The notes beneath the pieces are model-generated. The model searched no databases. It was not told the origin of the DNA and worked only from the letters and a program-made list of their open reading frames with translations. Shown one piece after another: positions 7,930 through 29,432 of a DNA stretch of 57,663 nucleotides. The position numbers were made by a program, and so were the translations under genes. Origin of the DNA: Aneurinibacillus terranovensis DSM 18919 (GTDB taxonomy: Bacteria > Bacillota > Bacilli > Aneurinibacillales > Aneurinibacillaceae); contig NZ_KE387172.1 in the NCBI RefSeq assembly GCF_000430625.1, forward strand, positions 29,263 through 86,925, written 5' to 3'. Positions within the stretch are counted from its first letter, which is position 1. Every line of letters starts with the position of its first letter.

Positions 7930-7945
7930 TCGCTTATCCTCTTGA

Positions 7946-7975: not shown

Positions 7976-7996
7976 ATTTAAGGAGGAAACGCGTCC

Positions 7997-8281: not shown

Positions 8282-8307
8282 AGAAAATGAGCATTGGAGG
8301 TGTGATT

Positions 8308-9426: not shown

Positions 9427-9445
9427 CTCAGGGAGGAAAAAAGAT

Positions 9446-10480
9446 ATGAAGACTACCAAGATGAGTTTTACTGATGCCCATATTGAGTTGGCCCATGGAG
9501 CCGGTGGGAAAGCCAGCCGACGACTCATCGAGGGGCTATTGGTTCCTTACTTGATGAACGACACGTTGCCGGAGTTGAACGATGCGGCACACATCGATGC
9601 TGATGGACGGCGTTTGGCTATTACGGCAGACAGCTATGTTGTCAAGCCGCTCGTCTTTCCGGGCGGGTCCATCGGCGAACTTGCCATAAATGGGACGGTT
9701 AACGATTTGGCCATGGGCGGAGCAAAGCCATTGGCGCTGGTGACCACGTTCATATTAGAAGCGGGCCTTTCGACATCTGAGCTGGAACGGGAAGTGGCGG
9801 CCATGGCCAGGGCGGCACAGTGTGCCGGGGTGTCCGTGGTGGGGGGCGATACGAAGGTGGTGGAACACGGTAAAGCAGACGGGCTGTTCATCACCACTGC
9901 AGGTATTGGTCTTACTGATCAGCGCGTATTCCTTTCGGCCGAACACGTTCGACCCGGCGATCAGGTAATTCTTTCCGGTCCGATCGGAGATCACGGGATC
10001 ACCGTCCTCCTGGCCAGGGGGGAATTGGATTTGGAAGCCGATCTCACCTCAGATACGCGCCCGCTATGGCCATTCGTTGCTAACCTCATCGACGCTGCGG
10101 CGCCAGGGCTGCGCTGGTTACGCGACCCGACGCGGGGCGGCGTGGCTACGGCGTTAAACGAATTGGCAAGAGACGCCAAAGTCGCCGTAGTGCTGGACGA
10201 GGAGGCGATTCCGGTACGTCCGGCGGTGCGGGGTACTTGTGAAATTTTAGGCCTGGATCCTCTTCACATTGCCAACGAAGGGCAGTTTCTCGCCATCGTT
10301 TCCCCGGAATACGCCGATATGGCGTTAGAAGCGATCCGGGGCATACCGGGCGGAGAGGACGCGCGGCGCATCGGCGAAATTCAAGAAGATCCGAAAAAAG
10401 TCGTCCTGGCGCGTTCCCGCTACGGAGGTACGCGGGTCATTGATATGCTTGTAGGCGATCCGCTGCCGCGTATTTGTTAA
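9446..10480 (+). CDS. hypE: HypE, carbamoyl dehydratase (CN ligand synthesis)
   Basis: This 344-residue PurM/AIRS-like ATPase ends in PRIC, the invariant C-terminal Cys that accepts the carbamoyl group from HypF and is dehydrated to thiocyanate. The ATP-binding parts are seen as LAHGAGGKASRRLI near the start, TADSYVVKPLVFPGG, NDLAMGGAKPLAL and VVGGDTKVVEHG. The ATG at 9446 follows GGGAGGAAAA; upstream in-frame starts lie inside hypD. Length and ends match the family. Confidence 0.95.
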   Translation: MKTTKMSFTDAHIELAHGAGGKASRRLIEGLLVPYLMNDTLPELNDAAHIDADGRRLAITADSYVVKPLVFPGGSIGELAINGTVNDLAMGGAKPLALVTTFILEAGLSTSELEREVAAMARAAQCAGVSVVGGDTKVVEHGKADGLFITTAGIGLTDQRVFLSAEHVRPGDQVILSGPIGDHGITVLLARGELDLEADLTSDTRPLWPFVANLIDAAAPGLRWLRDPTRGGVATALNELARDAKVAVVLDEEAIPVRPAVRGTCEILGLDPLHIANEGQFLAIVSPEYADMALEAIRGIPGGEDARRIGEIQEDPKKVVLARSRYGGTRVIDMLVGDPLPRIC

Positions 10481-10567
10481 ATGGTCGCTCCGGCTGCCTT
10501 GCGCGCATCGGGGAAGCGCGGCCGTCTGTTTCATCATCCGTAAGGACGGGAGGTGCTGAAACGAACC

Positions 10568-10819
10568 ATGCGTACACTTTATGGCACAAAAGGATGCCCT
10601 TACACGAAGGAGATGCGGGAATCTTTATTATGGGATGGAGAAGAGTTTACCGAATATGATGTGGAAGAAGACGAAGAAGCGTTAAAACAGCTCATCGCTT
10701 TGACGGGCGGACGCACCGTCCCTGTCCTGGTTGAAGACGACCGTGTCGTTCAAGTCGGGTTTTGCGGCCGCGGATGCATTGTCAAGCTGCCTTCTTCCAT
10801 GGAAGATACATCTTTGTAA
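10568..10819 (+). CDS. Small glutaredoxin-like (UXX-star type) thiol protein
   Basis: A thioredoxin-fold protein of 83 residues with the redox site GCPYTKEM at about residues 9-16 and the cis-Pro motif TVPVLVED near residue 53. The C-terminus has GFCGRGC. It resembles the short UXX-star glutaredoxin-like family that often sits in hyp or metal-cofactor loci. A role in keeping Hyp cysteines reduced is plausible but not shown. The start is uncertain: ATG 10568 gives the best fold start and lies 13 bases after GGGAGGTG; GTG 10553 would add five residues. Confidence 0.75.
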   Translation: MRTLYGTKGCPYTKEMRESLLWDGEEFTEYDVEEDEEALKQLIALTGGRTVPVLVEDDRVVQVGFCGRGCIVKLPSSMEDTSL

Positions 10820-10837
10820 AAAGGTAGGTGGTTTATC

Positions 10838-13909: not shown

Positions 13910-14536
13910 TGAACTACCCGCCACCTCCGCTTCGCTTAGAGGTGGGGGCTTCTAAGATGATCGTACCTAACGGTACGAAATTGACTTAGCTATCGAGCCT
14001 GTTCCATGCTCTATCTATGATTAGGCTAACAGTCGCAATCCTTCGTTTTTGATATTGATAGAAGCGTTCCAATCCCTGTCTGCAACAAAACCGCATTGAC
14101 AGGGGAATGTGCGCTCAGAAAGGGATAGGGATTCTTTCACTCGACCGCAACATGAGCAAGTCTTGGACGATGGAAACCACTTATCTATTTTGATAAGCTT
14201 TTTTCCCTGCTCCTCTAACTTGTATTGGAGAAATGTCGTAAACATGCCCCAGGCATTATCTGCAACACTTTTGTCAAAGTTGAGGGCTTGTGACATTCCT
14301 TACATGTTGAGGTCTTCGACAACCGCGCAGTCATACCGTTTCGCTAATTTGTGCGATTCCTTATGTAGAAAGTCTTTTCGTTGGTTCGCAATCCTTTTAT
14401 TTATCTAAGACTGATTATATCACAGCATAAGAGAAGGAACAATGTTAGGCTGCGCCTAACCGAAATTCATCTCCCGCTTTCACTGCTGCTGTCGCACCTT
14501 CACGTTTAGAAGTGGGAGACTTCTTTCGGAAGAATG
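13910..14536 (-). mobile_element. IS200/IS605-family relic (tnpB-only, internally deleted)
   Basis: A 627-bp insertion with hairpin ends rather than inverted repeats. On the minus strand the left end begins at 14,536 and has the pair CTCCC...GGGAG (14,466-14,514); the right end has CCCCCACCT...AGGTGGCGGG (13,917-13,950) and finishes GTAGTTCA. Inside is the C-terminal part of a TnpB. Removing exactly these bases rejoins CGA GAG with TTA AAA AGC and restores the monooxygenase frame, which fixes both borders. The flank 5' of the left end reads TTTTTAA, fitting a TTTAA-like target motif. No TnpA gene is present, so it cannot move on its own. Confidence 0.85.
14021..14406 (-). pseudogene. TnpB (IS605 OrfB) C-terminal remnant
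   Basis: On the minus strand the frame reads KRIANQRKDFLHKESHKLAKRYD and VVEDLNM, then a TAA, then GMSQALNFDKSVADNAWGMF on to the end. The Glu in VVEDLN is the RuvC-II residue and the Asp in DRDWNAS the RuvC-III residue. The zinc finger is intact (CSCCG and CQCG). The N-terminal half with the RuvC-I Asp is lost and the ochre codon splits the rest. Only the last 91 residues form an open frame from ATG 14,296. Confidence 0.85.
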
Positions 14537-15477: not shown

Positions 15478-15550
15478 AATTGAAATTGAAAGGTTACATC
15501 ATTTATAATTGATTGAACATTTAAAATTATCGGCCTTATGGGAGGGTGCT

Positions 15551-17548
15551 ATGAATAAGAAGTTCATTTATGAAGGATTACTAAGGCCTGAGCCGTCCGA
15601 TTTAATCTCCAGCATCCAAAACGCATGGGTAAAATATATTAAAGAGGGAATAAAGCCTGAATCTCTGCTTCGTTCAGAAATTATTGCTTCCTGGGAAAGA
15701 TCGAAAAGATTCGGAGTAAATCCTTTGCAGAAACAAGTTGAGGAAAGTATTGATAATGACGAACTAAGTTTATTTCACGAGAAAAATGATAAACTTCTCC
15801 ATTACGCCAGGCCGGATATGAAATTTCTGGCAGAATCTCTAGAAGGTTCGGAAACTATAATAACAATTAGCGATAAAAACGGGCTTTTACTGGATATGTA
15901 TGGTGATCGTGAAATTTTAAGAAAAGCGGGGAGAATAAATTTTCTTCCAGGGGCGGTTTGGAGTGAAGAAGTTGCAGGAACGAACGCTATAGGTACGGTT
16001 ATAAAAAATAAATTGCCTGTTCAGATTTTATTTACTGAACACTTTTGTACGGGATGGCATGATTGGATTTGTGCGGCTGCCCCTATATTGAATCCGTTTT
16101 CGCATGAGTTAATGGGTGTATTAGATATATCCGGTAAATGGAAGAATGTTCATCCACACACATTAGGATTAGCGATTAGTAAAGCTAATAACATCACCAA
16201 GTATATCGAGAGGATTATTTATCATGAAGGATTACGAATGAATCCTTTTTTGACGGCTACACTTGGTTCGTTTGAGGATGGAATTATTATTGTCGATGAA
16301 AAAAAGAATATTTTGAGGACTAATACAAAGGGAGAGTCATTTATAATTAGAAACAATAAGGAGAAATCTCTTAAAGATTACCCCGAAATTGAAGAGCTTG
16401 TTGATAATGTTATAAATAGTAAACGGTTGGTTGTTGAAAACGAGATCTCGATCAATGGTATGCAAGACAGATTCATTTGCACCGTACATCCTGTAATGTT
16501 TGATCAAAACACTCTACTAGGTGTAGTTGTTCGTTTACGTAAAATCGCCCTAAAATTGAATGCGAAAGAGAGTAAAAGTATAATATCTGCGGCAGATTTT
16601 GGAACAACAAGATATACATTTGATCATATGATTGGTTCAGATCCTGCATTTGTAAAGGGTGTTGATAAGGCTAGAAAAGCCGCATCTTTAGATTCTACTT
16701 TACTTTTAACTGGAGAATCTGGTACTGGAAAAGAATTGTTCGCCCAAGCAATACACAATGCAAGCAAAAGAAGTAATAATCCTTTCGTTGCTCTAAATTG
16801 TGGTGCAATCCCTCGCGAGTTGATTGAAAGTGAACTATTCGGTTACGAACAAGGGGCTTTTACGGGTGCAAAGCAAAAAGGTAGCAAAGGAAAGTTTGAA
16901 TTAGCAGATGGAGGCACCATTTTTCTGGACGAAATAGGGGACATGCCTTTAGAAGTACAAGTTCATTTACTTCGTGTTCTTGAAGAGAGAATGATTATGA
17001 GGATCGGTGGTGATAAAGTTATACCGATCAATGTACGAGTGATTGCAGCGACTCATAAGAACTTGATGGATGCTGTAAAGACAGGGATTTTTAGGGCTGA
17101 CTTATACTATCGTCTTCGTGTAATCGAATTGAAAATTCCCTCCGTGCGTGAGAGATCTTCGGATATTCCGCTTTTGGTTAAACATTTTCTTAAACAACTT
17201 AGTGGGAAATTTGGTAAGGAGGACATTCAAGTAGATTCGCAAGCGATGAAGTATCTACAGTCTTATTCATGGCCAGGTAATATTCGGGAGTTAAAGAATG
17301 TAATAGAACAAGCTATTTTTAATATGGAAGGAAACACTATTCTTCCCTACGATCTTCCGTCAGAGCTATTAGCGGAAGAAGAACAAAGTGTAACGTGTGA
17401 AAAAGGACATTTTATTGCTGTAATTAAGGCTGTTGGAGGGAATGTTACCCTTGCCGCTGAAAAATTAGGAATTTCCAGAGCAACAATGTATAGGAAAATG
17501 AAGCAATTAGGCATCTCTTCTGAAACAGTTAATCAAGTGAAACTTTGA
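15551..17548 (+). CDS. Sigma-54-dependent transcriptional activator, AcoR/AcxR type
   Basis: A 665-residue enhancer-binding protein. The N-terminal part (about 50-215) is a GAF-like sensor with [16 protein letters not shown], the AcoR-family signature, and a PAS-like segment follows (about 230-340). The AAA+ domain (about 355-590) has Walker A GESGTGKE, the sigma-54 contact loop GAFTGA, Walker [13 protein letters not shown] and the R-finger region. A Fis-type HTH ends the protein ([21 protein letters not shown]). ATG 15,551 has GGAGGG 5 bases upstream; upstream in-frame codons add nothing conserved. A sigma-54 promoter for the carboxylase operon lies 100 bases after its stop, so it most likely senses the ketone and turns that operon on. 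AcxR plays this part for acetone carboxylase. Confidence 0.92.
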
Positions 17549-17655: not shown

Positions 17656-17672
17656 TTGGCATGCTTCTTGCT
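17656..17672 (+). promoter_or_regulatory. Sigma-54 (-24/-12) promoter of the ketone carboxylase operon
   Basis: TTGGCATGCTTCTTGCT matches the consensus TTGGCAC-N5-TTGCW with one change, and the GG and GC pairs are 12 bases apart as required. Transcription should start near 17,683. The leader of about 185 bases to the first gene holds a 36-codon ATG frame (17,729-17,839) without a convincing ribosome site, which I do not annotate as a gene. Together with the activator gene upstream, this is strong evidence for sigma-54 control. Confidence 0.85.
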
Positions 17673-17868: not shown

Positions 17869-19809
17869 ATGGGACTGTTAATGACCATTGATAATGGTGG
17901 TACATTTACCGATGCGTGTTTGATCTATGGGGAGCGCGTGTTTCGTGCCAAGACTCTTACAACGCCGTATGACTTAACCAAATGTTTTATCGAAGTAATC
18001 AAGGCTGCTTCCAAAGAGGTTTATGGAGGGGAAAACATCCGTGCTCTTTTAACCGATCTTGATTATTTGCGTTACTCTACTACAGCAGGTACGAATGCAA
18101 TCGTGCAGAAAAAAGGACCGCGCCTTGGTCTAATCTTGCGCGAAGGGGCAAATCCTTCATTTCTGTTGGGAAGTAATGAAGAAAAAGAAATGTTTACTGC
18201 TATGGTGGATGATCGTGTTGCGGGGATCAACACCAGTGGGGAAGGGCAAGAATTGGAAGCTAAAGTGGTAGAAGTCATTAACCAATTACTCTCCCAGGGT
18301 ACTAATCGTTTAGTAGTTAGTTTAAGTGGATCGAATATCATAGAAGACGAAATTAAAATTAAAAACATTATTTTACGGAAATATCCTCGTCACCTTTTAG
18401 GGGCGGTTCCTGTATTATTCTCACATGAATTAGTTGATGACGCAAATGATAGCAGACGGACTTGGGGGGCTTTAATTAACTCATTCCTTCACTCGGGGAT
18501 GGAGCGCTTCTTATATAATGCAGAAAATGTGTTGCGTGAATATCGCACGAAAAATCCGCTGCTTATTTTCCATAATGATGGTAACTCAGCCAGGGTAGCC
18601 AAAACAACAGCCATTAAAACCTATGGTTCAGGGCCTCGCGGAGGAATGGAGGGGACGAAGGCACTAGCTCAACATTATAACATTCCGGCGTTGTTGACCC
18701 TGGATATTGGGGGAACTACTTCCGATATTGGTCTGGTCAAAGTCGGTCAGATTAAAGAGGATGTATATGGAAAAATTGAAGAAATTCCAACGTCATTCTC
18801 TTTAAGCGATTTGATTAGTGTAGGTGCTGGTGGAAGTTCAATCTTTAAGGTCGTGGAAGGAAAGGTTGTTGTTGGTCCGGAAAGTGTAGGGGCTGCACCG
18901 GGACCGGCTTGTTTTGGACGCGGAGGGCAGGAACCGACTATTACGGATGCATACCTCTTGATGGGAGTATTGGATTCTCGCTCCTATTTCCGTGGTAGCA
19001 TGGTTCTCGATGAGTCCCGTGCTAGGGCAGCGATTGAAGAAAAAATTGCGAAGCCCCTTGGAGTAAGCCTTGAAGAGGCGTTAGTGGCAATGGAAAAAGC
19101 GTATGAGGAAAAGATTGCGAAAGGATTGGCTGTTTATCAGGACCAGGCGAACGAAGTGACCCTGTTAGCTTTTGGTGGTGCAGGACCAATGAGTGCTTGT
19201 GGAGTGGCAAGGGCAGCAGGAATTAAACAAATCGTTATTCCACGTTTGGCCGCAGTCTTTAGTGCGTTCGGAATTTCATTCAGTGATATTGCGCATGAAT
19301 ATCAAGCTAATTTAGTTGAGATTAACGGTAAGAGTTTACAGGAAAAGTTAGTTCAACTAGAAGAGCGGGCTAAACGGGATATGTTTGCGGAAGGATTCGA
19401 TATCTCGGAGTGTACAATCCAAACTCATCTCAGCTTTTTCCGAAATGGAGAGTACCAAACGATTACACTTGACCCATCAGATGCCGTAATCGTCGGATTG
19501 GAAGGAGCTCAGGATATTCGCCTTCATCTTAAAGTGGAAAAGCCGATTGCTCACTTTAAGTTAGAGAATAAAAAGAAATTGAAGGAACATGCTCCAACCC
19601 CTATATATCAAAAATCAATTTTAAATACGGAAAAACAAGCACAAGAGGTTCCGGTTTATCGCTTTGAAGAGATGAAACCAGGGGCTATCGGAGCAGGGAC
19701 CGCTTTGATTGAAGATGAGTACTTCACCTGCCGTATTTTAGAAGGGTGGACGTTTAAGGTTAACGAAAACAAAGATATCTTTTTGTACGATGAAGGGGGA
19801 AAGGCATAA
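17869..19809 (+). CDS. Acetophenone carboxylase-type subunit 1 (HyuA-like, ATP-binding)
   Basis: A 646-residue member of the hydantoinase A/oxoprolinase family with an ASKHA-type ATPase fold. Phosphate-binding motifs are intact: TIDNGGTFTDAC near the start, TLDIGGTTSDIGLV at about 278 and GAGGSSIFKV. In ketone carboxylases such subunits make the phosphorylated enol and carboxyphosphate needed for carboxylation. The gene is first of five in a row whose predicted sizes (about 72, 14, 80, 84 and 33 kDa) follow the order of apc1-apc5 of Aromatoleum. ATG 17,869 has AAAGGGG 8 bases upstream; a TTG at 17,824 is in frame but weak. The stop overlaps the next start (TAATG). Confidence 0.88.
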   Translation: MGLLMTIDNGGTFTDACLIYGERVFRAKTLTTPYDLTKCFIEVIKAASKEVYGGENIRALLTDLDYLRYSTTAGTNAIVQKKGPRLGLILREGANPSFLLGSNEEKEMFTAMVDDRVAGINTSGEGQELEAKVVEVINQLLSQGTNRLVVSLSGSNIIEDEIKIKNIILRKYPRHLLGAVPVLFSHELVDDANDSRRTWGALINSFLHSGMERFLYNAENVLREYRTKNPLLIFHNDGNSARVAKTTAIKTYGSGPRGGMEGTKALAQHYNIPALLTLDIGGTTSDIGLVKVGQIKEDVYGKIEEIPTSFSLSDLISVGAGGSSIFKVVEGKVVVGPESVGAAPGPACFGRGGQEPTITDAYLLMGVLDSRSYFRGSMVLDESRARAAIEEKIAKPLGVSLEEALVAMEKAYEEKIAKGLAVYQDQANEVTLLAFGGAGPMSACGVARAAGIKQIVIPRLAAVFSAFGISFSDIAHEYQANLVEINGKSLQEKLVQLEERAKRDMFAEGFDISECTIQTHLSFFRNGEYQTITLDPSDAVIVGLEGAQDIRLHLKVEKPIAHFKLENKKKLKEHAPTPIYQKSILNTEKQAQEVPVYRFEEMKPGAIGAGTALIEDEYFTCRILEGWTFKVNENKDIFLYDEGGKA

Positions 19810-20162
19810 TGAAAGCTAATATGACGGAATATTTAGCAATCGATCTGGAAAAGGAGCTTTGGTGCTGCCGCAAATGTGACCACGAAATTGCCTCTGCTCG
19901 TGGAAATTATAAAGAAGGTCTTCTCGTTTACAATCGTGATCCGAGAGAAATTCATAAGCCCATTATTAATCCTGATTGGTACGAGTTTACCTTTTCACCC
20001 GATCCGAGCTGGTGTCAGATTCTTGAGTATTATTGCCCTAATTGTGCAACCATGGTGGAAGTAGAATATTTACCACCTGGCCATCCTCCACTACATGATA
20101 TGGAATTTGATATCGATGCATTAAAAGATCGTTATCTTAAAAGAGAGGGGAAGAGAGCATGA
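19809..20162 (+). CDS. Acetone/acetophenone carboxylase gamma subunit (Zn-binding)
   Basis: This small protein (117 residues) has the family pattern of ketone carboxylase gamma subunits: CCRKCDHEI at about residues 18-26, an Arg-Glu-rich stretch RDPREIHKPI, DPSWCQILEYYCPNC near residue 66-80, then EVEYLPPGHPPLHD. The two CxxC pairs form a zinc site, which in the known structures holds the subunit to the complex. It overlaps both neighbours by one and four bases, so all three are translated together. It equals Apc2/AcxC in position and length. The presence of this subunit is what separates the operon from hydantoinase or oxoprolinase loci. Confidence 0.9.
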   Translation: MKANMTEYLAIDLEKELWCCRKCDHEIASARGNYKEGLLVYNRDPREIHKPIINPDWYEFTFSPDPSWCQILEYYCPNCATMVEVEYLPPGHPPLHDMEFDIDALKDRYLKREGKRA

Positions 20163-22333
20163 AGCAAGTTAGTGTAGATATTGGTGGAACGTTTACAGAT
20201 TGCTTTCTGGTTTGGGATGATATCTATTTAGAAACGAAAGCGCTAACAACGCACCATAACCTAGCACTCGGTTTTATGGACGCACTGGAGCAGGCATGTA
20301 AAGAGCTTGGAAAAGATATTCGCACGGTCCTTTCCCAACTGGATTCCGTGCGATATGCCACAACTTTGGGAACTAATGCCCTGATCGAACGAAAAGGGCC
20401 AAAAATTGGATTGTTGACTACAGCTGGTTATGAAAGTCAGGTCCCTTTAAGCCGTGGTCGCGGTTATGGTGATGGTTTGACACCTCAGGAGCAGCAAGAC
20501 TTGCCTGCCGGTCAGCGCCCCGAGCCGATTGTACCAATTCCAATGATAGCAGGGGTTCGTGAGAGGATTGATTATAAAGGCGACATTGTAATGCCGCTAG
20601 ATGAAGAGCATCTTCGTCAGCAAATTCGACTTCTTGTTGACCGCGGGGCCCAGGCATTTGTGGTCGGGCTGACTAATTCCGTTGTTAATCCGGTGCATGA
20701 AAGAAGAGTAGAAGAAATTTTCCTGGAAGAGTATCCGACCCATATGCTAGGTGCGCTTCCTGTTATTCTTTCCCATCAGGTAGCTGAACGGAAGGGAGAA
20801 TATGTGCGCATTACCTCTGCCATTCTGGATGCCTATTTGCACGACCAAATGTATCATGCATTAAGTTCACTTGAAATGACGCTGAAGGAATACGGGTATA
20901 ACAAACCGATGTTAGTCGTTCACAATATCGGTGGAATGGCTCAGTTGAACTCAACGCATGCTCTTCAAACGATTCATTCTGGTCCAACAGCAGGGGTTAA
21001 CGCCGCCGAGCACCTTTCAGAAGAATTTAATGTGGGGCATTTAGTTGCAATGGATATGGGTGGAACAAGCTGTGATATTGGGATTGTCGTAGGTGGCGGT
21101 ATCCGATTCTATGATTTTAACCCTGTAATTGACAGATGGTTAGTCAGTGTTCCAATGCTTCATTTAGGAATTATTGGTGCAGGGGGAGGTTCCATCGCCC
21201 GCTACGATACAACCTTAAAGCATATTGAAGTAGGGCCAGCCAGTGCAGGTTCTGAACCGGGTCCGGCATGTTTTGACCGAGGGGGAATCAATCCGACAGT
21301 AACGGATGCCGATTTGATTTTAGGATACTTGGATCCGGAATATTATGCAGAAGGTCACATTTCCCTAAACAAGAAACGCTCGGAATTTGCGATTGGGGAA
21401 GCCATTTGTGATGAATTGGATATAAGTGTTGTGGAAGCGGCACGTCAAATAAAGAAAAAAGTAGACACCAATATGGCCCACGCTATTTTTAAAGAACTTG
21501 GCGTTAAAGGATATGATCCGAAAAACTTTACCCTCCTGGCATATGGAGGAAATGGGCCCCTCCATTGTTGTGGTATCGCAAAAGTTCTTGACATCGAAAA
21601 AATCTTAATACCTCCGTTCTCCCCTATTTTCTCAGCAGTGGGAGCAGGTATCATGAATCAGGTAAATATTCATGAAAAATCGGTGTTTATGAACATTTAT
21701 GATTCCAATACGCGGAGTCTCTTTAAAGAGTATGAACGGTTCAACTCGATCGTCGAGGAATTGGAAGGGGAAGGAAAAGAGGAGTTGTTGCGTCAGGGAA
21801 TCCCGGAAGAAGCAATTCAGCATCGTCTGGAACTGGATATGCGTTACGGAAATCAGCTGACACAAACTTCTGTTATTTCTCCAGTTAACCGTCTAAATAA
21901 TATGGCTGAAGTGTTGGAACTGGTGAACTCGTTCAGTGTAAACTATGGCGAACGATTTGGGGAAGGAAGCCAGCAGCCTGAAGCCGGTATCCGGATCAAT
22001 ACGATCCGTGTGCTATCTTTCGTTGAGTTGGAACGGGTTGAGTTCAAGAAACCGATTGAAGGTCAAATAGAAGCGCCGGAACCTGTTAGTAAACGTGACT
22101 GTTATTTTGTTGATATCGATGAACCGGTGGTTACAAGTGTGTACCGTACACAATCGATTCAACCAGGTGCTGTCATTGAAGGACCTGCACTCGTGGAATC
22201 ACCTCGTACCACCTATCTCATTGAGCCGGGTTGGAAATTTATTATGGGCGAACAAAACTCGGCCTGGATTATAAATAGTCAAAATAATAGCGCAAGTAAC
22301 AAATTTCAAACGGATACGATGGCCGTAAAATAA
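20159..22333 (+). CDS. Acetophenone carboxylase-type subunit 3 (second HyuA-like)
   Basis: The second HyuA-like gene (724 residues) is a distant paralogue of the first. It keeps the ATPase motifs SVDIGGTFTDCFLVW (start), AMDMGGTSCDIGIV (about 297) and GAGGGSIARYD, and has a longer N-terminal insertion rich in Gly and Gln (RGRGYGDGLTPQEQQD). Acetone carboxylase has only one such subunit; acetophenone carboxylase has two that divide the work of activating ketone and bicarbonate. Both copies here look catalytically intact. Start ATG 20,159 overlaps the gamma gene (ATGA). Confidence 0.88.
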   Translation: MKQVSVDIGGTFTDCFLVWDDIYLETKALTTHHNLALGFMDALEQACKELGKDIRTVLSQLDSVRYATTLGTNALIERKGPKIGLLTTAGYESQVPLSRGRGYGDGLTPQEQQDLPAGQRPEPIVPIPMIAGVRERIDYKGDIVMPLDEEHLRQQIRLLVDRGAQAFVVGLTNSVVNPVHERRVEEIFLEEYPTHMLGALPVILSHQVAERKGEYVRITSAILDAYLHDQMYHALSSLEMTLKEYGYNKPMLVVHNIGGMAQLNSTHALQTIHSGPTAGVNAAEHLSEEFNVGHLVAMDMGGTSCDIGIVVGGGIRFYDFNPVIDRWLVSVPMLHLGIIGAGGGSIARYDTTLKHIEVGPASAGSEPGPACFDRGGINPTVTDADLILGYLDPEYYAEGHISLNKKRSEFAIGEAICDELDISVVEAARQIKKKVDTNMAHAIFKELGVKGYDPKNFTLLAYGGNGPLHCCGIAKVLDIEKILIPPFSPIFSAVGAGIMNQVNIHEKSVFMNIYDSNTRSLFKEYERFNSIVEELEGEGKEELLRQGIPEEAIQHRLELDMRYGNQLTQTSVISPVNRLNNMAEVLELVNSFSVNYGERFGEGSQQPEAGIRINTIRVLSFVELERVEFKKPIEGQIEAPEPVSKRDCYFVDIDEPVVTSVYRTQSIQPGAVIEGPALVESPRTTYLIEPGWKFIMGEQNSAWIINSQNNSASNKFQTDTMAVK

Positions 22334-22352
22334 CAAAAGGGAGTGTGGAAAC

Positions 22353-24593
22353 ATGGCTTTGGATGAATTGAAGCGAGAACAAGAACTGGTAGAGAAGTTT
22401 TTGAAAGAAACCACCCTTTTTCTTGGTCCTGGACCCAGTTTGATGCAAGACCATACATTAGCCCCGATAACAGAAAGGGAAATTGAAGCCATTCGGAAGG
22501 TTACGGATCCTTCTGTTCTTAGTGTGGCACGCAGCAAGATGCAAGCAGGAGCAAACGAAGCGTTTGAAATGCTTGAACAGATCGGGGCTGCACCAGGAGC
22601 AAAATGGGGGGATCTGGTTTGTGGGATCTTTACCGCGAAAGGAGACTTATCCATCGTAAGCTCCGGTGGAGTGTTGATCTTCGCCGGATGTACACAGTAT
22701 GGGGTAAAATATATCGTTCAGAATTGGCTCGATGATCCCGAGGTAGGCGTAAAGCCTGGTGACATCTTCTATTACAATGATGCCCGATATGGTGGAGTTC
22801 ACAATACAGACCAAAACTTGATTATGCCGGTTTTTCATGAAGGGGAGTTAATTGCTTGGATTGTGACCGTTGTCCATGAAGGGGAAAATGGGGCGATCGA
22901 GCCGGGTGGCATGCCATCTGCTGCCGAACAAGTTTATGATCAGGGTCTGGCTATTTCACCGGTTCGGGTAGGCGAAAATTATAAGTTTTATAAAGATCTG
23001 GTCACTTATTTCCAAAATTCCGTCCGTGAACCAAAATTGCAAGTGGTGGATATGAAGGCCAAGCTTTATGCCGCCCGCCGCATTGAACAGCGTATTGAGG
23101 AAACTATTGGTGAATACGGTGTAGATGCTGTTGTTGCCGTATTAAGAAAGACGTTAGATGATACGGTAGAAGAGGTAAAGCGCCGTCTTCGTCAATGGCC
23201 TGACGGCAAAGTGCGGATGATGGGGATTGCTGACAGTACTTTGCGGGAAAATTTATTAATTAAAGTCAATCTGGAGCTAACCAAAAAAGATGATTTATTA
23301 ACTCTTGATTTCCGGGGATCATCACCCGAATTTGCCAACCGTCCTAACAACTCGGTAACAAGCGCGATGAAAGGGATGCTAGCTCAATTATTCCTATCAT
23401 TTATTTGGCCTGATCTACCAAGGAATCAAGCAGTTCTGGCACCAATGGAATTTATTATCGATGAGCATTCTATCTACAATGCTTCATACGATGTTCCGAA
23501 TGCACAAAGTATGATGACGTTTTTCCCGGCGTTCACGGCAACGCAGGCAGCTTTAGCCAAATTTTTATACAACAGCCCGGAAAAAGCGACGAAGGTTTTG
23601 GCCCCTTGGTACAACATGATTAGAACTTGTATCTATGGTGGGGTAACCCAACATGGGGAAACCGTAGGTAATCTATGTGCCGACTTGAACGGGATGCCTG
23701 GTGGAGCAAGGGAAGGTCTTGACGGAGAGCACTCGATTGCGCCGATCTTTGCCCCGATGGCGGAGCAAGGGGAGCAAGAACTGATTGAAGAGGAAGTTCC
23801 GATTATGCAGCTTTCCCGCCGCCTTATGAAGGACAACCAAGGATTTGGCAAATATCGAGGTGGTCAGGGCTATCAAATGTTTTTGACGCAAAAGGATTCG
23901 GACTATTTCGGGTTTATGACCACGACCATCGGTTCCAAATATCCGTCAACGTATGGAATTTTTGGAGGCTATGCTTGCCCGGCTTACCCACTTTGCAAAA
24001 TCAAGGGTGTGGATATTTTTGAGATTATGAAAAATGAACCGGAAAAGATGGTCTATACAGCCAAAGAGATCATGAACAATCGTCCTTTCGAAAATGCTAC
24101 CTACACCACGCATCATGGCGGATTACAATTCGAATTGGTTCAAGAGGGTGAGCTTTATATTATTACGCAAGGGACTGGCGGCGGTTATGGGGATGTACTT
24201 GATCGGGATCCGGAGAAGGTCATTAAGGATGTGGAGGAAAACCTGATTTCCCAGGAGACGGCCAATAACATTTATAAGGTCTTTTACGATCCGAAAACCC
24301 TTGTACTGGATGTGAAAAAGACAGAAGAGGCCCGACAAAAAGAGAAAGAAGACAGGAAAAAGAGAGGGGTTCCTTATCAGAAATTCATAAAAAAATGGGT
24401 AACTGATAAGCCGCCAGCTCATCTTCCTTTCTATGGTTCATGGAAGGATCGGGACATTATCTTTGCCGGATCCCCGGATAGTGTTATGACGGAAGGAAAT
24501 TTAAAATCAGTATGGTTGCCGAATCCAAAAGATGTTCGCATTTCAGAATTAGAAAAGCAGCTTCAAGAATTAAAAGAAAAAATCAATTCCTAA
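22353..24593 (+). CDS. Acetophenone carboxylase-type subunit 4 (HyuB-like, large)
   Basis: A 746-residue hydantoinase B-like protein, the family of AcxB and Apc4 that binds the metal ion and carries out the carboxylation step. Family features are the N-terminal MQAGANEAFEMLEQIG, DIFYYNDARYGGVHNTDQNLIMPVF cut short here as NDARYGGVHNTDQN, the glycine-rich TGGGYGDVLDRDPEKV and MPGGAREGLDGEHSIAP. GGGAGTG serves as ribosome site, 19 bases after the previous stop. The C-terminus ends in a coiled-coil-like Glu/Lys helix. It should assemble with the preceding three products into the core complex. Confidence 0.88.
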   Translation: MALDELKREQELVEKFLKETTLFLGPGPSLMQDHTLAPITEREIEAIRKVTDPSVLSVARSKMQAGANEAFEMLEQIGAAPGAKWGDLVCGIFTAKGDLSIVSSGGVLIFAGCTQYGVKYIVQNWLDDPEVGVKPGDIFYYNDARYGGVHNTDQNLIMPVFHEGELIAWIVTVVHEGENGAIEPGGMPSAAEQVYDQGLAISPVRVGENYKFYKDLVTYFQNSVREPKLQVVDMKAKLYAARRIEQRIEETIGEYGVDAVVAVLRKTLDDTVEEVKRRLRQWPDGKVRMMGIADSTLRENLLIKVNLELTKKDDLLTLDFRGSSPEFANRPNNSVTSAMKGMLAQLFLSFIWPDLPRNQAVLAPMEFIIDEHSIYNASYDVPNAQSMMTFFPAFTATQAALAKFLYNSPEKATKVLAPWYNMIRTCIYGGVTQHGETVGNLCADLNGMPGGAREGLDGEHSIAPIFAPMAEQGEQELIEEEVPIMQLSRRLMKDNQGFGKYRGGQGYQMFLTQKDSDYFGFMTTTIGSKYPSTYGIFGGYACPAYPLCKIKGVDIFEIMKNEPEKMVYTAKEIMNNRPFENATYTTHHGGLQFELVQEGELYIITQGTGGGYGDVLDRDPEKVIKDVEENLISQETANNIYKVFYDPKTLVLDVKKTEEARQKEKEDRKKRGVPYQKFIKKWVTDKPPAHLPFYGSWKDRDIIFAGSPDSVMTEGNLKSVWLPNPKDVRISELEKQLQELKEKINS

Positions 24594-24684
24594 TCTTTGG
24601 TGATTAATATGTTTAACTGAAAAGTCAGTAAGTTGTTCTTTGCGGCTTTTCCAACTGCTATAAAAGTGAAGGGGGGAATGAGGA

Positions 24685-25563
24685 ATGAATTTTAAACAGT
24701 TTTTATTCCCATCAGATACGAAGAGAAAAGTCTGGGTAGATTTTCTTGACTATGCCAATCGACTTTTTGCGGCAGGTAGGGAGGATTTATGGAGTAACCC
24801 AGATACCTTTATTTCCGTCTATAGCCAGGGGCAGGGACTGCTTCGTTCAGATGTACTAAGTCTTTCTATCCTTGACTTCTATGCGGACTTTATCAATCGT
24901 GAACTGGGTGTCAAGGAACCGTGGGTGGGCAGAAAACCAACATTTGCCTTAAAAAAACTGCTGGCACTGGAAGAACCCAGAAATGTTCTTTTGGATGTTT
25001 TATCAGGACTACAAAATCTTTATCGGGGAAATCCGCATATCGTACTTGCGATCCCCTCTCCACAAAGGCTGCTTGTATGGTTGGATTCAGTGGTGCAAAT
25101 TAATCAAGATCTTCCGATAAGCCATGATGATATCGAGGCAGCAGCAATGTATTTGGCCGAGTATTTACGGTCTTTTTCCACTTCCGGATTATCGGCGATT
25201 GTCATCATGGAGAGCGATTCTCCGCTTTTAGATATAAATGAAGCTCTTTCTCTCTACCAGCCCGTATTTAATATAGCGAGGCATTACCAGTGGTCGGTGG
25301 GAATCCAGAAAGGGGGAACCGCTCATGAAATGACCAAGGGCGGGGATGAGGTGGACTTTTATCTCTATGGAGATAGTGAAATTAGCGCCTTGCTTCCTCT
25401 TTGGGAGAAGGGACTTGCCATTGGAGGGGGACTAAATCGGAATTTTTGGGAAGAAAATTCTAATTTACTTGAACTTCCTTCTATAGGGCTCACTTATGGG
25501 ATGATCCCTGGGTATGCGGAACCTGAAAAGGTACTTTCTCAATTGAAAAAGTTGCGTTCGTAA
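24685..25563 (+). CDS. Apc5/ApcE-like accessory subunit of ketone carboxylase
   Basis: The 292-residue product has no domain I can name from motifs, but its size (about 33 kDa) and place as fifth gene match Apc5 (34 kDa), which in Aromatoleum joins the core complex and is needed for activity. It is soluble, with LFAAGREDLWSNP, VYSQGQGLLRSDVLSLSILDFYADFI, and a later part ISHDDIEAAAMYLAEYLRSFSTSGLSAIVI. GGGGGGAATG precedes ATG 24,685. It is separated from subunit 4 by 91 bases, a looser link than within the core genes. A direct alignment to Apc5 is the test. Confidence 0.7.
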   Translation: MNFKQFLFPSDTKRKVWVDFLDYANRLFAAGREDLWSNPDTFISVYSQGQGLLRSDVLSLSILDFYADFINRELGVKEPWVGRKPTFALKKLLALEEPRNVLLDVLSGLQNLYRGNPHIVLAIPSPQRLLVWLDSVVQINQDLPISHDDIEAAAMYLAEYLRSFSTSGLSAIVIMESDSPLLDINEALSLYQPVFNIARHYQWSVGIQKGGTAHEMTKGGDEVDFYLYGDSEISALLPLWEKGLAIGGGLNRNFWEENSNLLELPSIGLTYGMIPGYAEPEKVLSQLKKLRS

Positions 25564-25635
25564 AAATTTTTACGATTAATGTGAAGAAGTAAACGGAATA
25601 GATAATGCCTGTGAAATATGCGGCGAAGGAGCTGC

Positions 25636-25677
25636 AATGATCTCGTGACCTGCGATCACGAGATCATTGTTGTCTTT
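25636..25677 (+). terminator. Strong hairpin between carboxylase and CoA-transferase genes
   Basis: AATGATCTCGTGA (25,636-25,648) and TCACGAGATCATT (25,656-25,668) form a perfect 13-bp stem with a 7-base loop. The following GTTGTCTTT is only a weak U-tract, so it may be a partial terminator or a processing site that sets the ratio of the two operon halves. Confidence 0.6.
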
Positions 25678-25712
25678 AACATCTTCCCTATGAAGAGAAA
25701 GGAGACTGTATT

Positions 25713-26414
25713 TTGAAAAAAGGTAAAATAATTGGGTCTTTTGCAGAAGCGGTTCGTGATATTAAGGATGGTTCCACCATCATTGTAGGTGGATTTGGAA
25801 TTTGCGGAATTCCTGAAAAATTAATACTTGCCTTACGGGATCAAGGGGCTAAAGATTTAACCATTGTCAGTAACAATTGCGGCACCGATGATTGGGGTCT
25901 TGGGTTGTTGATGGCCAATCAACAAATTAAAAAAATGGTAGCCTCTTATGTCGGTGGAAACAAAATCTTTGAACAGCAATTCATAAGCGGAGAGTTAGAT
26001 GTGGAATTAGTTCCGCAGGGAACGTTAGCAGAACGAATTCGTGCTGGTGGTGCTGGAATTCCCGGTTTTTATACGGCAACAGGAGTAGGGACCATGGTTG
26101 CAGAAGGAAAAGAACACAAAGTATTCGATGGAAGAACGTATATCTTAGAACGCGGGATAGTGGGGGATTTCGCATTGGTCAAAGCATGGAAGGGGGATCC
26201 GCTGGGCAATCTTGTTTTCCGCAAAACGGCGCGCAACTTTAATCCCCTGGCGGCCATGGCGGGTAAAATCACCATAGCGGAAGTAGAGGAAATTGTAGAA
26301 ATCGGAGAATTAGATCCAGATGAAATTCATACACCTAGCATTTATGTCCAGCGTATTTTGCTTGGTACGAATTATGAAAAGCGAATTGAATGCCGTACCG
26401 TTTTTACGGCCTAA
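25713..26414 (+). CDS. scoA: 3-oxoacid CoA-transferase subunit A
   Basis: A 233-residue family I CoA-transferase alpha subunit. [13 protein letters not shown] (about residues 26-38) is the glycine loop of the family, and [44 protein letters not shown] (quoted in part: [11 protein letters not shown]) and GAGIPGFYT follow SCOT proteins. It starts with TTG 25,713 behind AAAGGAGA. With the next gene it moves CoA from succinyl-CoA to a 3-oxoacid. Next to the ketone carboxylase, the acceptor is probably the carboxylation product. Confidence 0.9.
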
Positions 26415-26489
26415 TTCTCTTACGGGATTATGGATAATACGTTCTTCTTAATAGCTTCTGGATAAAAAGTAAGGAATGGAGGAGTTCTT

Positions 26490-27140
26490 ATGAAAGATGT
26501 TCGCTTAAAAATTGTGCAACGTGCCGTAAATGAAATTGAAGATGGAATGTATGTCAATCTTGGAATTGGGATGCCGACACTTGTTGCTAATGAAATTCCC
26601 CCAGAATATAACGTGTTACTTCAATCGGAGAACGGATTGTTAGGAATTGGTCCGTATCCTGTAGCAGGAATGGAAGATCCAGATCTCATTAATGCTGGGA
26701 AAGAAACCATTACCACAGTTCCCGGCGCTGCTTTCTTTGATAGCGCTGAATCGTTTGCCATGATTCGAGGTAGACATATTGACCTTGCTATCCTTGGAGG
26801 GATGGAGGTATCCGAAAAAGGAGATTTGGCCAATTGGGTCATTCCAGGGAAAATGGTGAAAGGGATGGGGGGAGCGATGGATCTCGTCAATGGAGCTAAA
26901 CGTATCGTTGTGATCATGGAACATGTCAATAAACATGGAGAATCGAAAGTGAAAAAGGAATGCACACTTCCATTAACAGGAAAACAAGTGGTGCATCGTT
27001 TAATCACTGATTTGGCAGTATTTGATTTTACTCCAGAGGGCATGGTTCTTGTAGAAACCCAGGAAGGGGCAAGAGTGGACGAAGTGAAGGCTAAAACAGC
27101 AGCTTCCTTTATGGTAAGCCCGAAATTGCTAGTAAGATAA
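26490..27140 (+). CDS. scoB: 3-oxoacid CoA-transferase subunit B
   Basis: The 216-residue beta subunit carries the catalytic Glu in [11 protein letters not shown] (about residue 50), which forms the glutamyl-CoA intermediate. [14 protein letters not shown] and [14 protein letters not shown] are further family marks. It is encoded 75 bases after scoA with its own AATGGAGGAG site. Together the pair replaces the ATP-using CoA ligase that activates benzoylacetate in the Aromatoleum pathway. Confidence 0.92.
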
Positions 27141-27224
27141 AGGTTTATATATATTTTGGTAACTAAGGGTCATAGTACCGTTTGTGGATAAAAAACAGTC
27201 GTGAAACTGAAAGGAGTGAAAATT

Positions 27225-28400
27225 GTGGAACAGGTTGTCATTGTTGCCGCAGGTCGTTCACCGATTGGAGAATTTGGGGGAAGTTTAAAAAGTGTGTCAG
27301 CAAGAGAATTAGCCACACATGTAGTCAAAGAAGTAGTTAAAAAATCCGGGCTCTCGCCTGAACACATTAATGAATTAATTTTGGGGAATTGCATCCAAAG
27401 AACGGATGAACCCAATATTGCCCGGACAGTAGCGATTGATGCGGGGTTTGGCAATCATGTAACAGGTTTTACCGTACAGCGCCAATGCTCTTCCGGAATG
27501 CAGGCCATTGTGAATGGTGTTCAGGAAATTTTGTTAGGAGACAGTGAAATTGTCGTTGCTGGCGGTGTGGAAAACATGAGTAATGCCCCTTATGTGTTGA
27601 AAACAGCACGTTGGGGGAATCGCCTACAGCACGGCCAAATGACCGATACTGTATGGGAAATTTTGATGGACCCGCATCATCAGATTATGATGGGCGAAAC
27701 GGCGGAACGTTTAGCGGATAAATATGAGATTACCAGAGAAGAGCAGGATGAAATCGCATATCTTAGCCATCAAAAAGCGATCGGTGCTATTGAATCCGGT
27801 CGGTTTGCTGAAGAAATCGTTCCAATACCGATAAAAAAGAAGAAGGAAACGGTCTTTATAGACCGGGATGAACATGTCCGAACAGATATTACGTTAGAAA
27901 GCTTAGCTAACTTGTCTCCCATTTTCAGAAAGAATGGAACGGTCACAGCAGGAAATGCCTCAGGCATAAACGATGGTGCGGCTGCGGTTGTTCTCATGAC
28001 GGAAAGAAAAGCAAAAGAACTAAATCTTGAAATCATTGGGAAAATCAAAACATATGCTTGGGTCGGTGTGGAGGCCGATCTGATGGGGTATGGCCCGGTG
28101 CCCGCTACACATAAAGCCTTAAAAAGGGCCGGCTATACGTTAGACGATATTCAGCTGATTGAGGTCAATGAAGCATTTGCTGCCCAATATCTAACTGTAG
28201 AAAAATTGCTAGGCTTAAATCGTGAGATTGTCAATGTAAACGGAAGTGGGATTAGTTTAGGTCATCCCATTGGTTGCACGGGTGCAAGAATAGTGATTAG
28301 TCTACTTTTTGAGATGAAGCGTCGGGACTTACAGCGTGGTTTAGCAACCTTATGCATCGGTGGCGGCATGGGAATGAGTATGATTGTAGAGCGTGAATAA
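27225..28400 (+). CDS. Acetyl-CoA acyltransferase (thiolase)
   Basis: A 391-residue thiolase. The acyl-accepting Cys lies in QRQCSSGMQA (about residue 88), the His in GHPIGCTGAR and the second Cys in CIGGGMG near the end; VNEAFAAQ is the Asn-Glu motif. It should split the 3-oxoacyl-CoA into acetyl-CoA and a shorter acyl-CoA, which ends the ketone pathway. The start is GTG 27,225 because AAAGGAG is 7 bases upstream; GTG 27,201 would place the ribosome site inside the gene. Substrate range cannot be read from the sequence. Confidence 0.93.
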   Translation: MEQVVIVAAGRSPIGEFGGSLKSVSARELATHVVKEVVKKSGLSPEHINELILGNCIQRTDEPNIARTVAIDAGFGNHVTGFTVQRQCSSGMQAIVNGVQEILLGDSEIVVAGGVENMSNAPYVLKTARWGNRLQHGQMTDTVWEILMDPHHQIMMGETAERLADKYEITREEQDEIAYLSHQKAIGAIESGRFAEEIVPIPIKKKKETVFIDRDEHVRTDITLESLANLSPIFRKNGTVTAGNASGINDGAAAVVLMTERKAKELNLEIIGKIKTYAWVGVEADLMGYGPVPATHKALKRAGYTLDDIQLIEVNEAFAAQYLTVEKLLGLNREIVNVNGSGISLGHPIGCTGARIVISLLFEMKRRDLQRGLATLCIGGGMGMSMIVERE

Positions 28401-28445: not shown

Positions 28446-28589
28446 ATGTAAGTAATTGGAAATTGGACATTGCGAGACTTGCTTAACGAAAAGACAACCC
28501 TTTATCCTGATAAAACATTTCTTCATTTTGAAGACAATAATGAACAAATATTTACCTTAACTTATAAACAAATATACAAAAATATTTAG
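28446..28589 (+). pseudogene. N-terminal fragment of AMP-forming acyl-CoA ligase
   Basis: An AAAGGAAG site and ATG at 28,446 are followed at once by TAA, after which the frame continues with NWTLRDLLNEKTTLYPDKTFLHFED, TLTYKQIYKNI and a stop at 28,587. W-T-L-x-D-L-L, YPDKTFL and LTY are the standard opening of acyl-CoA synthetases. Only about 45 of some 500 codons remain and the break falls right at the start of the SAM riboswitch. It was probably a CoA ligase of the ketone pathway, comparable to the ligase gene that follows apc1-5 in Aromatoleum; that link is inference. Confidence 0.7.
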
Positions 28590-28590: not shown

Positions 28591-28757
28591 CTCTTATCAA
28601 GAGAGGTGAGGGACTGGCCCAATGAAACCTCGGCAACCATTGACTCGTGCAACCGGTGCCAATTCCAGCGGAACATTGTTTCGAAAGATAAGGGGTGCGA
28701 CCGTTCCTTTGCTGCGTTTTTGTCGACCTCTTACCACCGAAGAGGTCGTTTTTATTT
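28591..28757 (+). promoter_or_regulatory. SAM-I (S-box) riboswitch with terminator
   Basis: The aptamer runs from CTCTTATCAAGAGAGG (28,591) to AAAGATAAGGG (about 28,694). The S-box cores AAGAGAGGTGAGGGACTGGC and ATGAAACCTCGGCAACC are clear, and CTTATC pairs with GATAAG to close P1. The expression platform ends in a terminator: CGACCTCTT (28,724-28,732), AAGAGGTCG (28,740-28,748), then TTTTTATTT. It would shut transcription when S-adenosylmethionine is plentiful. Downstream there is only AGGAGGAGC and a 12-codon frame at about 28,819, then a broken TRIC gene, so its original methionine or sulfur gene appears lost. Confidence 0.93.
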
Positions 28758-28935: not shown

Positions 28936-29432
28936 ATGTCTTGGGAGATTTTGAACATAATTGGCACGATTGCGTTCGCTGTAAGCGGTGCACTGGTCGC
29001 AAAGCACCTTGCTTTGGACGGCGTTAATTGCGATGCTCGTTCTTTTTCTTCTTCCAGGCAAGTGGATTAACCAGAGCAGAAAATATGTCGAATTATTTGA
29101 TGCGGTTGGACTTGCAGCTTTTGCCATTCTAGGTGCGCTGTATGCTGCGCAAATCGGGCGTCCGCTGAGTGCCATTATGGTGGCTGCTATTGACAGGAAT
29201 AGGCGGTGGCATGATTCGCGATGTACTTGCCGGGCGAAAACCTTATGTGTTAAAGGAAGATATTTATGCTATATGGGCGATGCTGGCGGGTTTTATTATT
29301 GGCATGGGTTGGGTTTCCCTGTCTAATCCCGTCCAATTATCAGCTCTGTGCGGCGTTATTGTTATCCTGCGAATGTTGTCCGTTTATTATAGATGGAAAC
29401 TGCCGAGGCGAACCCTGCAAAAAGCTTGGTAG
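28936..29432 (+). pseudogene. TRIC/UPF0126 membrane channel gene, frameshifted
   Basis: Three frames carry one protein. The first gives MSWEILNIIGTIAFAVSGALVA, the second WSQSTLLWTALIAMLVLFLLPGKW through GALYAAQIGRPLSAIMVAAI, the third LTGIGGGMIRDVLAGRKPYVLKEDIYAIWAMLAGFI to the stop. This is the duplicated three-helix UPF0126 (TRIC cation channel) family. About 35-40 residues of the first repeat are missing at 29,000, and a single-base shift lies at about 29,190 (GCTGCTATT-GACAGG). A membrane protein of the family would have about 205 residues. Confidence 0.85.

Follow-up and report, generated by a model that had tools for sequence, protein, structure and literature searches.

An operon related to acetophenone carboxylase next to a CoA-transferase pair and a thiolase in the Gram-positive Aneurinibacillus terranovensis

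The acetophenone carboxylase (Apc) of Aromatoleum aromaticum EbN1 (structures 5l9w and 9fou) is encoded in the order alpha'-gamma-alpha-beta-epsilon and is accompanied by a benzoylacetate-coenzyme A (CoA) ligase. By 2017 it was the one characterised enzyme of its branch, and the accessible part of the structural report (PMC5214803) urges caution on the function of relatives, describes the role of epsilon as open and records few epsilon orthologues. Acetone carboxylase (AcxABC; 5m45 and 5svb) performs chemistry of the same kind with three subunits, a longer gamma, Glu as the fourth metal ligand and neither alpha' nor epsilon. Here, a stretch of 57,663 nucleotides from Aneurinibacillus terranovensis DSM 18919 (contig NZ_KE387172.1; the whole stretch is called the window below, and positions are counted from its first letter) carries eight genes at 17869-28400, all on the forward strand: two HyuA-like genes flanking a small gamma gene, a HyuB-like gene, a gene for a protein of 292 amino acids (aa), a CoA-transferase pair and a thiolase. 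We consider it likely that the first five, which lie behind a sigma-54 element and an activator gene, encode an Apc-type ketone carboxylase that depends on ATP and has five subunits. By its sequence the locus is not an acetophenone carboxylase proper but belongs to a separate Apc-like subfamily. The reading frames predicted by the initial annotation were all found in their places and on one strand, and the locus and its surroundings consist of the following features.

15509-17548, forward strand: gene for a sigma-54-dependent activator (AcoR/PrdR/DhaR-like, Fis-type helix-turn-helix); Pfam Sigma54_activat 4.7e-70 and HTH_8; best NCBIfam models PrdR and DhaR, below cut-off
17656-17672, forward strand: sigma-54 (-24/-12) promoter element TTGGCATGCTTCTTGCT; exact match, ~200 bp before apcA
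17869-19809, forward strand: ApcA-like alpha' (second ATP-binding, predicted bicarbonate-kinase subunit); 646 aa, 70.5 kDa; Pfam Hydantoinase_A; 5l9w_b 3e-92; ASKHA motifs DNGGTFTD, DIGGT and GAAPGP; no alpha fingerprint
19809-20162, forward strand: ApcB-like gamma with a four-cysteine zinc site (C20/C23/C76/C79); 117 aa, 13.9 kDa; Pfam Acetone_carb_G 1.4e-39; 5l9w_C 1e-33
20159-22333, forward strand: ApcC-like alpha (predicted ketone-kinase subunit), pocket T-I-H-P-I-H-L; 724 aa, 79.9 kDa; 5l9w_B 6e-163; fingerprint RERIDYKG
22353-24593, forward strand: ApcD-like beta, Apc-type metal ligands D87, H150, D153 and H175 (by alignment); 746 aa, 83.7 kDa; 5l9w_A 9e-91; beta tree SH-aLRT 85
24685-25563, forward strand: ApcE-like epsilon, predicted barrel of the uroporphyrinogen decarboxylase (URO-D) fold; 292 aa, 32.9 kDa; AlphaFold2 pLDDT 92.6; Foldseek top 9fou; profile-profile E 3e-11
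25634-25670, forward strand: hairpin with a 15-bp stem and a weak T tail (possible terminator or attenuator), between the epsilon gene and the transferase
25713-26414, forward strand: 3-oxoacid CoA-transferase subunit A (ctA); Pfam CoA_trans; TIGR02429 277.5 bits, cut-off 128.5
26490-27140, forward strand: 3-oxoacid CoA-transferase subunit B (ctB), SENG motif; TIGR02428 312.7 bits, cut-off 243.55
27201-28400, forward strand: classical short-chain thiolase, BktB-like; TIGR01930 479.5 bits, cut-off 240.55; PRK09051 BktB best, below its cut-off
28446-28589, forward strand: AMP-forming CoA ligase gene reduced to a stump; 45 N-terminal codons, stop directly after the start codon, remainder missing

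The gene order at 17869-25563 is that of apcABCDE, with alpha', gamma, alpha, beta and epsilon in turn and roughly matching sizes. The start of apcA was taken to be the ATG at 17869, which lies behind a purine-rich stretch, while the longest open reading frame (ORF) opens at a TTG at 17824. Pfam and NCBIfam agree on every gene except the fifth. In phmmer searches of the PDB, the closest solved relatives of the first four proteins were the alpha', gamma, alpha and beta chains of 5l9w, and acetone carboxylase and hydantoinases scored behind these chains (chain names after PMC5214803; the letters of the PDB entry differ). Identities of the core subunits to true or near-true Apc sets were 29-52% each, where the true Apc genomes are the three with an epsilon above the NCBIfam cut-off and the near-true one (L120) lies somewhat below it. 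Both the alpha-like and the alpha'-like protein carry the three ATP-site (ASKHA) motifs. The fingerprint described for Apc alpha in the accessible part of PMC5214803 is closely approached in the alpha-like protein (Y where the motif has s) and is absent from the alpha'-like protein. Gamma has its four cysteines as in Apc and is shorter than the 168 aa of its acetone carboxylase counterpart. In beta, the metal-site residues D87, H150, D153 and H175 align with Asp65, His123, Asp126 and His148, which the same part of PMC5214803 names as the Apc ligands; acetone carboxylase has Glu89 at the first of these places, according to the available portion of PMC5543143. In a beta tree (built, like the other subunit trees, from 42 of 91 operon loci plus extra rows), the window subfamily is well supported (Shimodaira-Hasegawa-like approximate likelihood ratio, SH-aLRT, 99) and joins Apc proper and one intermediate (SH-aLRT 85), with the two acetone carboxylase-type and four hydantoinase-type (HyuB) proteins of the host falling outside this group.

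The fifth gene is, judged by a predicted structure and by profile comparisons, apcE, coding for a relative of Apc epsilon. The protein has no Pfam match, and sequence searches of the PDB with it and with its alignment gave nothing credible, despite the presence of 9fou in the library, which a profile of the Apc-epsilon set does recover. The link to ApcE therefore rests on fold and profile evidence. An AlphaFold2 model built from an alignment of 39 relatives (of 76 sequences) reached a mean predicted local distance difference test (pLDDT) score of 92.6, and Foldseek against the PDB placed the Apc epsilon chains of 9fou first (E 3.4e-7 to 2.3e-6, TM 0.60-0.64) and uroporphyrinogen decarboxylases next. 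VIA-align gave Z 19.4 for URO-D (root-mean-square deviation, rmsd, 3.7; 284 aligned) and Z 17.7 for ApcE (rmsd 3.8; 267 aligned), other barrels reaching 13-14.5. The Apc epsilon of 9fou itself resembles uroporphyrinogen decarboxylase. At the level of profiles, the window epsilon family matched a profile built from the epsilons of four true or near-true Apc sets together with three intermediate ones, with 97.2% probability and E 3.2e-11 (hhalign E-values refer to the single profile pair), and did not match two URO-D-like proteins (0.4% probability). A hidden Markov model (HMM) of the Apc-epsilon set found members of the window family at E down to 1e-7 among 4615 ORFs, a database that did not contain the window protein. 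The initial annotation had counted a lack of relation between the product of the gene at 24,685 and Apc5 among the grounds for refutation; the product is related to Apc epsilon by predicted fold and profile-profile match, and other members of its family also by HMM. With the uroporphyrinogen decarboxylase superfamily (PF01208) the predicted protein shares the barrel fold at an identity of 12-15%; the Pfam URO-D model matched neither the window epsilon nor any of the 39 alignment members, although the epsilons of two more distant operons exceeded its gathering cut-off of 23.9 (L025 with 31.7 bits, L027 with 26.8 bits). Within the alignment Arg162 is invariant (39/39) and a His200-Tyr201-x-Trp203 motif is conserved, with the His in 38/39. 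Two weak NCBIfam matches in the 39-sequence set, to a beta-lactamase model (1 member, 0.002) and a VapC model (1 member, 0.074), were taken as chance.

The same set of genes recurs among relatives. Their frequencies were taken from the best 80 of 504 encoding stretches and are hence valid for near relatives only; the set contains duplicate loci (L029/L039 and L028/L038), which are also present among the 82 upstream regions used below. A, B, C and D were all present in 76 of the 80 loci and epsilon, detected by HMM, in 64, so that the gene set is not a product of chance. Of the 70 loci that contain D and continue for 1 kb or more past it, 62 have an epsilon, the eight without a recognisable one being L045, L046, L047, L049, L097, L103, L106 and L108. 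The nearest named relative, Aneurinibacillus danicus, belongs to the host's family (C subunit 96% identical; its contig ends within D), in line with the Gram-positive host assigned at the outset. Five-gene operons of Bacillota and Pseudomonadota, for example those in Bacillus piscicola, on a Neorhizobium petrolearium plasmid, in Zoogloea and in Azotobacter beijerinckii, belong to the same subfamily and mostly share its pocket and epsilon, and half of the operons in this wider group have a sigma-54 element. Plasmid records in Rhodococcus, Neorhizobium, Cupriavidus and haloarchaea extend the subfamily further.

The sigma-54 -24/-12 consensus was used to search for promoter elements. Within the window, only the element between the activator gene and apcA matches exactly; with one mismatch allowed, a further site appears at 31788, and 11 of 100 shuffles likewise contained at least two sites at that laxity. 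Among the 82 regions upstream of apcA in relatives, 42 had a match of 10-11 out of 11 positions, 18 of them complete. Matches of 10-11 positions were found in 13 of 1640 shuffled controls and in 4 of 410 stretches taken from within gene C. On this sequence evidence sigma-54 control appears frequent in the subfamily, though not evident in all its members. The host genome has a gene for the sigma-54 factor, and a regulator 61% identical to that of the window adjoins the operon in a genome of the same family (G004). On the N. petrolearium plasmid (L033/L161), the apc-like operon adjoins a transferase pair and genes for the sigma-54 factor, a GTP-binding protein and a sigma-54 activator, an arrangement that resembles a portable regulon.

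By analogy with Apc, as described in the accessible part of PMC5214803, alpha would phosphorylate the enol of the ketone and alpha' bicarbonate, beta and gamma would hold the two kinases and the metal site, and a loosely bound epsilon barrel would close the complex and be needed for joining the two activated substrates. The product would be a beta-keto acid. From the gene neighbourhood we infer that this acid would be converted to its CoA thioester by the 3-oxoacid CoA-transferase, after which the BktB-like thiolase would cut the thioester to acetyl-CoA and acyl-CoA; the transferase would then stand in place of a ligase that survives at the locus only as a stump. We rate this flow of the product through the neighbouring transferase as somewhat more probable than its absence. 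At the family level the pair is, by its models, a 3-oxoacid CoA-transferase, and to that extent the succinyl-CoA:3-oxoacid transferase proposed for it stands; the downstream thiolase was also recovered, as a BktB-like enzyme. The protein from ctA carries a CoA-transferase motif, the Glu of SENG in ctB is the predicted catalytic residue, and the third protein has the Cys/His/Cys motifs of thiolases.

Support for a former ligase comes from the stump behind the thiolase, which suggests that a ligase was once part of the locus. It is identical at 25 of 45 positions to the ligase behind apcE in B. piscicola and likewise at 25 of 45 to a ligase on host contig C29. Eleven other loci with an epsilon gene come from the host's class or from named Bacillota, and nine of these have an AMP-forming ligase after epsilon on the same strand (L025, L026, L027, L029, L030, L041, L042, L044 and L064, where the match is only 21%); in L040 the ligase lies on the opposite strand, and none was found near epsilon in L043. 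Most Bacillota relatives thus have a ligase, usually together with an SCP2-type thiolase, behind epsilon. The claim that the transferase replaces the ligase holds insofar as the transferase stands where most Bacillota have the ligase and a truncated ligase lies downstream, but was overstated beyond that.

Transferases next to such operons are not confined to the host. They occur in 14 of the 80 loci, for which reason the idea of a pairing unique to the window was dropped, and the pairing as such is not new. Sixty loci extend 5 kb or more past D; of these, 12 have a transferase, 26 a ligase, 6 both and 28 neither. In Ciceribacter, Allorhizobium, Ochrobactrum and Neorhizobium the transferase lies behind epsilon in convergent orientation; Zoogloea and its relatives have it upstream of the operon, and A. 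beijerinckii has it immediately after epsilon. The full row of epsilon, transferase A, transferase B and classical thiolase occurred in the window only among 92 sequences; none of the 91 other loci had transferase A, B and classical thiolase in succession behind epsilon, though their contigs often end early (that of L076 right after transferase B). In a transferase tree that included the window and the 11 apc-linked loci with passing sequences for both subunits, the window's pair groups with Bacillota transferases that lack apc genes in the stretches fetched, and in a comparison of two trees a single clade of apc-linked transferases was rejected (approximately unbiased test, p-AU 0.003). The pairing would thus have arisen at least twice, with transferases recruited independently in Pseudomonadota, and this repeated recruitment, read from sequence, suggests a functional link. 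Ligase and transferase appear interchangeable at the activation step that follows carboxylation. The ligase reaction consumes ATP to AMP and the transferase reaction one acyl-CoA, so an energy saving holds only if the transferase accepts the carboxylation product. The variant pathway that "saves ATP" is plausible but unproven and not unique, and as first worded it went too far in light of an intact ligase on C29, the hairpin before ctA and the transferases in 14 of 80 loci.

Several observations weigh against this account. The beta subunit is closer in length to the host's acetone carboxylase (754 aa) than to Apc (684 aa in 5l9w_A, about 60 aa shorter than in the window), and is the one size that departs from the match to apc1-5 claimed at first, a match that otherwise stands in order and most sizes. 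According to the accessible part of PMC5214803, length is only an approximate distinction between the branches, and a beta of 746 aa therefore lowers but does not bar membership of the Apc branch. The tree program issued a long-branch warning at the join of Apc beta and the window, where support is moderate (85), and the basal branching of the trees for alpha and alpha' is not settled. These two are muddled because of long branches and of partly misplaced or fragmentary hydantoinase outgroup rows (L015, L016 and L018, which fell with acetone carboxylase or were fragmentary), and only the beta tree was used. Of the trees proposed for comparison with Apc and AcxABC, that of beta thus favours Apc, while those of alpha and alpha' do not decide. 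Epsilon is barely recognisable by sequence: its sole NCBIfam match is a weak one to ApcE (12.2 bits, E 0.08), the ApcE model matched only 2 of 39 aligned relatives (best E 0.024), and Pfam on the 39-member alignment returned ten families, each in one or two members and at E 0.02 at best; URO-D was not among them, and all were taken as chance. With the Apc-epsilon HMM, the nearest relatives of the window epsilon had low scores or were absent from the 40 matches listed, the closest (L029/L039 and L042) being among the absent ones. Further downstream, the 15-bp hairpin separates the epsilon gene from ctA, no sigma-54 element of at least 10/11 lies before ctA, and the ligase-thiolase pair on C29 has a perfect sigma-54 element of its own. 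Co-transcription of epsilon and ctA is not assured, given the hairpin and the lack of an element before ctA. The hairpin sequence occurs at one place in the host genome within 3 mismatches, which rules out a genomic repeat.

These downstream points would be accommodated if the carboxylase were as proposed but the transferase-thiolase trio formed a unit of its own, serving acetoacetate or a different 3-oxo acid. The product would then be activated by the ligase on C29 and cleaved by the SCP2-type thiolase there. As the host assembly is a draft (98 contigs, 1.28% estimated contamination), loci on its other contigs were taken as belonging to the host. The C29 ligase is intact and 74% identical to the operon ligase of B. 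piscicola, and the thiolase after it is 75% identical to the operon thiolase of G004; together with the sigma-54 element this means that the host may activate the carboxylation product there. A loss of the ligase pathway from the host was dropped as an explanation in view of this pair. Close relatives of the transferase in the host's family and order also occur without apc genes in the stretches fetched. On the other hand, epsilon and ctA lie only 149 bp apart on the same strand, transferases and apc-like operons have become neighbours repeatedly and independently, and the ligase at the locus is reduced to a stump. We regard a separate unit as the less probable arrangement, if the strongest competitor. 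The C29 region (L158, 3676-10190) comprises a sigma-54 activator, a TIGR00366-like transporter (below cut-off), a crotonobetaine-ligase-like CoA ligase and the SCP2-type thiolase, has sigma-54 elements on both strands and resembles a regulon partner of ketone carboxylases.

Both a separate unit and a role in acetone metabolism question the later steps of the proposed pathway and not the enzyme class or the reaction type. After acetone carboxylase, activation of acetoacetate by a CoA-transferase is usual. The accessible part of PMC7888143 names an acetyl-CoA:acetoacetate transferase or an acetoacetate ligase as possible enzymes, neither of which was measurable in Desulfococcus biacutus. An enzyme that carboxylates acetone to acetoacetate, followed by a transferase of the succinyl-CoA:3-oxoacid type and a thiolase, would fit the downstream genes of the window, which are of the kind found with AcxABC. 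His150, Asp153 and His175 of beta even carry the acetone carboxylase numbering in the available portion of PMC5543143, and the His/Asp/His part of the metal site is common to both. However, the window beta shares Asp as fourth metal ligand with Apc, where AcxABC has Glu, and the host has a full canonical three-gene acetone carboxylase on contig C18 (1158 bits to 5m45), which makes acetone less likely for the window operon. The pocket of that enzyme (L L V P M A M) differs from the window pocket (T I H P I H L) at six of seven positions. Acetone is thus probably served by the C18 enzyme, a different ketone is the more plausible substrate of the window operon, and a function as acetone carboxylase appears unlikely. 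The view that the operon does not have the three-gene layout is borne out by its five genes and by the true acetone carboxylase elsewhere. A third operon of ketone carboxylase type, with the unusual order HyuB-gamma-HyuA and 372 bits to 5m45 alpha, lies on the reverse strand of contig C5 (L032, 3678-8667) next to a divergent sigma-54 activator, and perfect sigma-54 elements precede the first gene of both the C18 and the C5 operon.

A genuine acetophenone or other aryl ketone carboxylase would have the same five subunits in the same order, and the operon thiolase of G004 and the C29 thiolase match the benzoylsuccinyl-CoA thiolase (BbsB) model, far below its cut-off. The accessible part of PMC5214803 proposes an acetophenone pocket of Apc alpha formed by L81, F281, N282, P285, I333, Q344 and T345, as a structural proposal and not a proven site. 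The four true or near-true Apc genomes all encode an alpha with these seven residues, whereas five of the seven differ in the window, including those at Leu81 and Phe281. The pocket T I H P I H L was found in 69 of the 80 genome loci and in 77 of 92 aligned sequences, the remaining 15 deviating by one to three letters. All five proteins missed the NCBIfam Apc equivalog cut-offs (374.7/1250, 145.1/250, 582.9/1500, 342.9/1500 and 12.2/450 bits), and classical BktB-like thiolases suit short aliphatic acyl chains. The missed cut-offs and the changed pocket together set the locus apart from acetophenone carboxylase proper, and acetophenone, the first substrate suggested, is very improbable. The core match to the 5l9w chains and the related fifth protein bear out the Apc-type five-gene set itself. 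An ATP-dependent amidohydrolase of the hydantoinase or lactamase type, from the same superfamily and suggested by the Pfam names Hydantoinase_A/B, is barely conceivable given the presence of gamma, alpha' and epsilon, the higher core scores with Apc than with hydantoinases and a beta outside the host's four HyuB proteins.

The substrate of the proposed carboxylase is, as far as sequence can indicate, probably a ketone other than acetophenone, and we give about even chances to an aliphatic one that is not acetone, such as butanone or an alkyl methyl ketone with a longer chain. The Rhodococcus and Neorhizobium plasmid neighbourhoods that were inspected gave no clear substrate hint. In the literature searched, which covered few subscription papers, we found no characterised member of the subfamily with the TIHPIHL pocket and no paper joining acetophenone carboxylase with an epsilon subunit, joining carboxylase, methyl ketone, CoA transferase and hydantoinase, or joining acetone carboxylase either with 2-butanone and operon or with Rhodococcus and hydantoinase. 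The ketone carboxylase genes in the accessible part of PMC8461187 have other names and refer to other reference proteins. The large sister subfamily of Apc is thereby given a signature in its pocket, an epsilon that can be recognised, a sigma-54 element present in many members and a member from a Gram-positive host. The substrate question becomes testable in a cultivable relative among the Bacillota, and candidates for CO2-fixing biocatalysts are added. More speculatively, the TIHPIHL subfamily could be a further functional branch of ATP-dependent ketone carboxylases in Bacillota, Pseudomonadota and Actinomycetota, with a haloarchaeal variant, that acts on one common natural ketone not yet linked to such an enzyme. 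Epsilon would be a decarboxylase-fold barrel run in reverse, unloading carboxyphosphate and joining CO2 to the enol phosphate via Arg162 and His200-Tyr201-x-Trp203, and the locus would show an ATP-costly ligase step under replacement by a CoA-transferase, with the stump as its trace. We consider this combination doubtful as a whole.

Directly behind the ligase stump lies an S-adenosylmethionine (SAM) riboswitch (28591-28694, 91.7 bits), followed by a terminator-like stem at 28724-28748; an intact methionine gene is not apparent up to 29520. Judged by eye, the frames at 28936-29432 resemble remnants of a single disrupted gene for a membrane protein. A fragment with a Cas12f1-like_TNB domain (TnpB-like) lies on the reverse strand at 14021-14296, upstream of the regulator gene. 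The region 1098-13087 contains NiFe hydrogenase genes, with HypB-like, small and large subunit, HypD and AIRS-domain HypE-like proteins assigned by Pfam and a HypF-like protein by eye.

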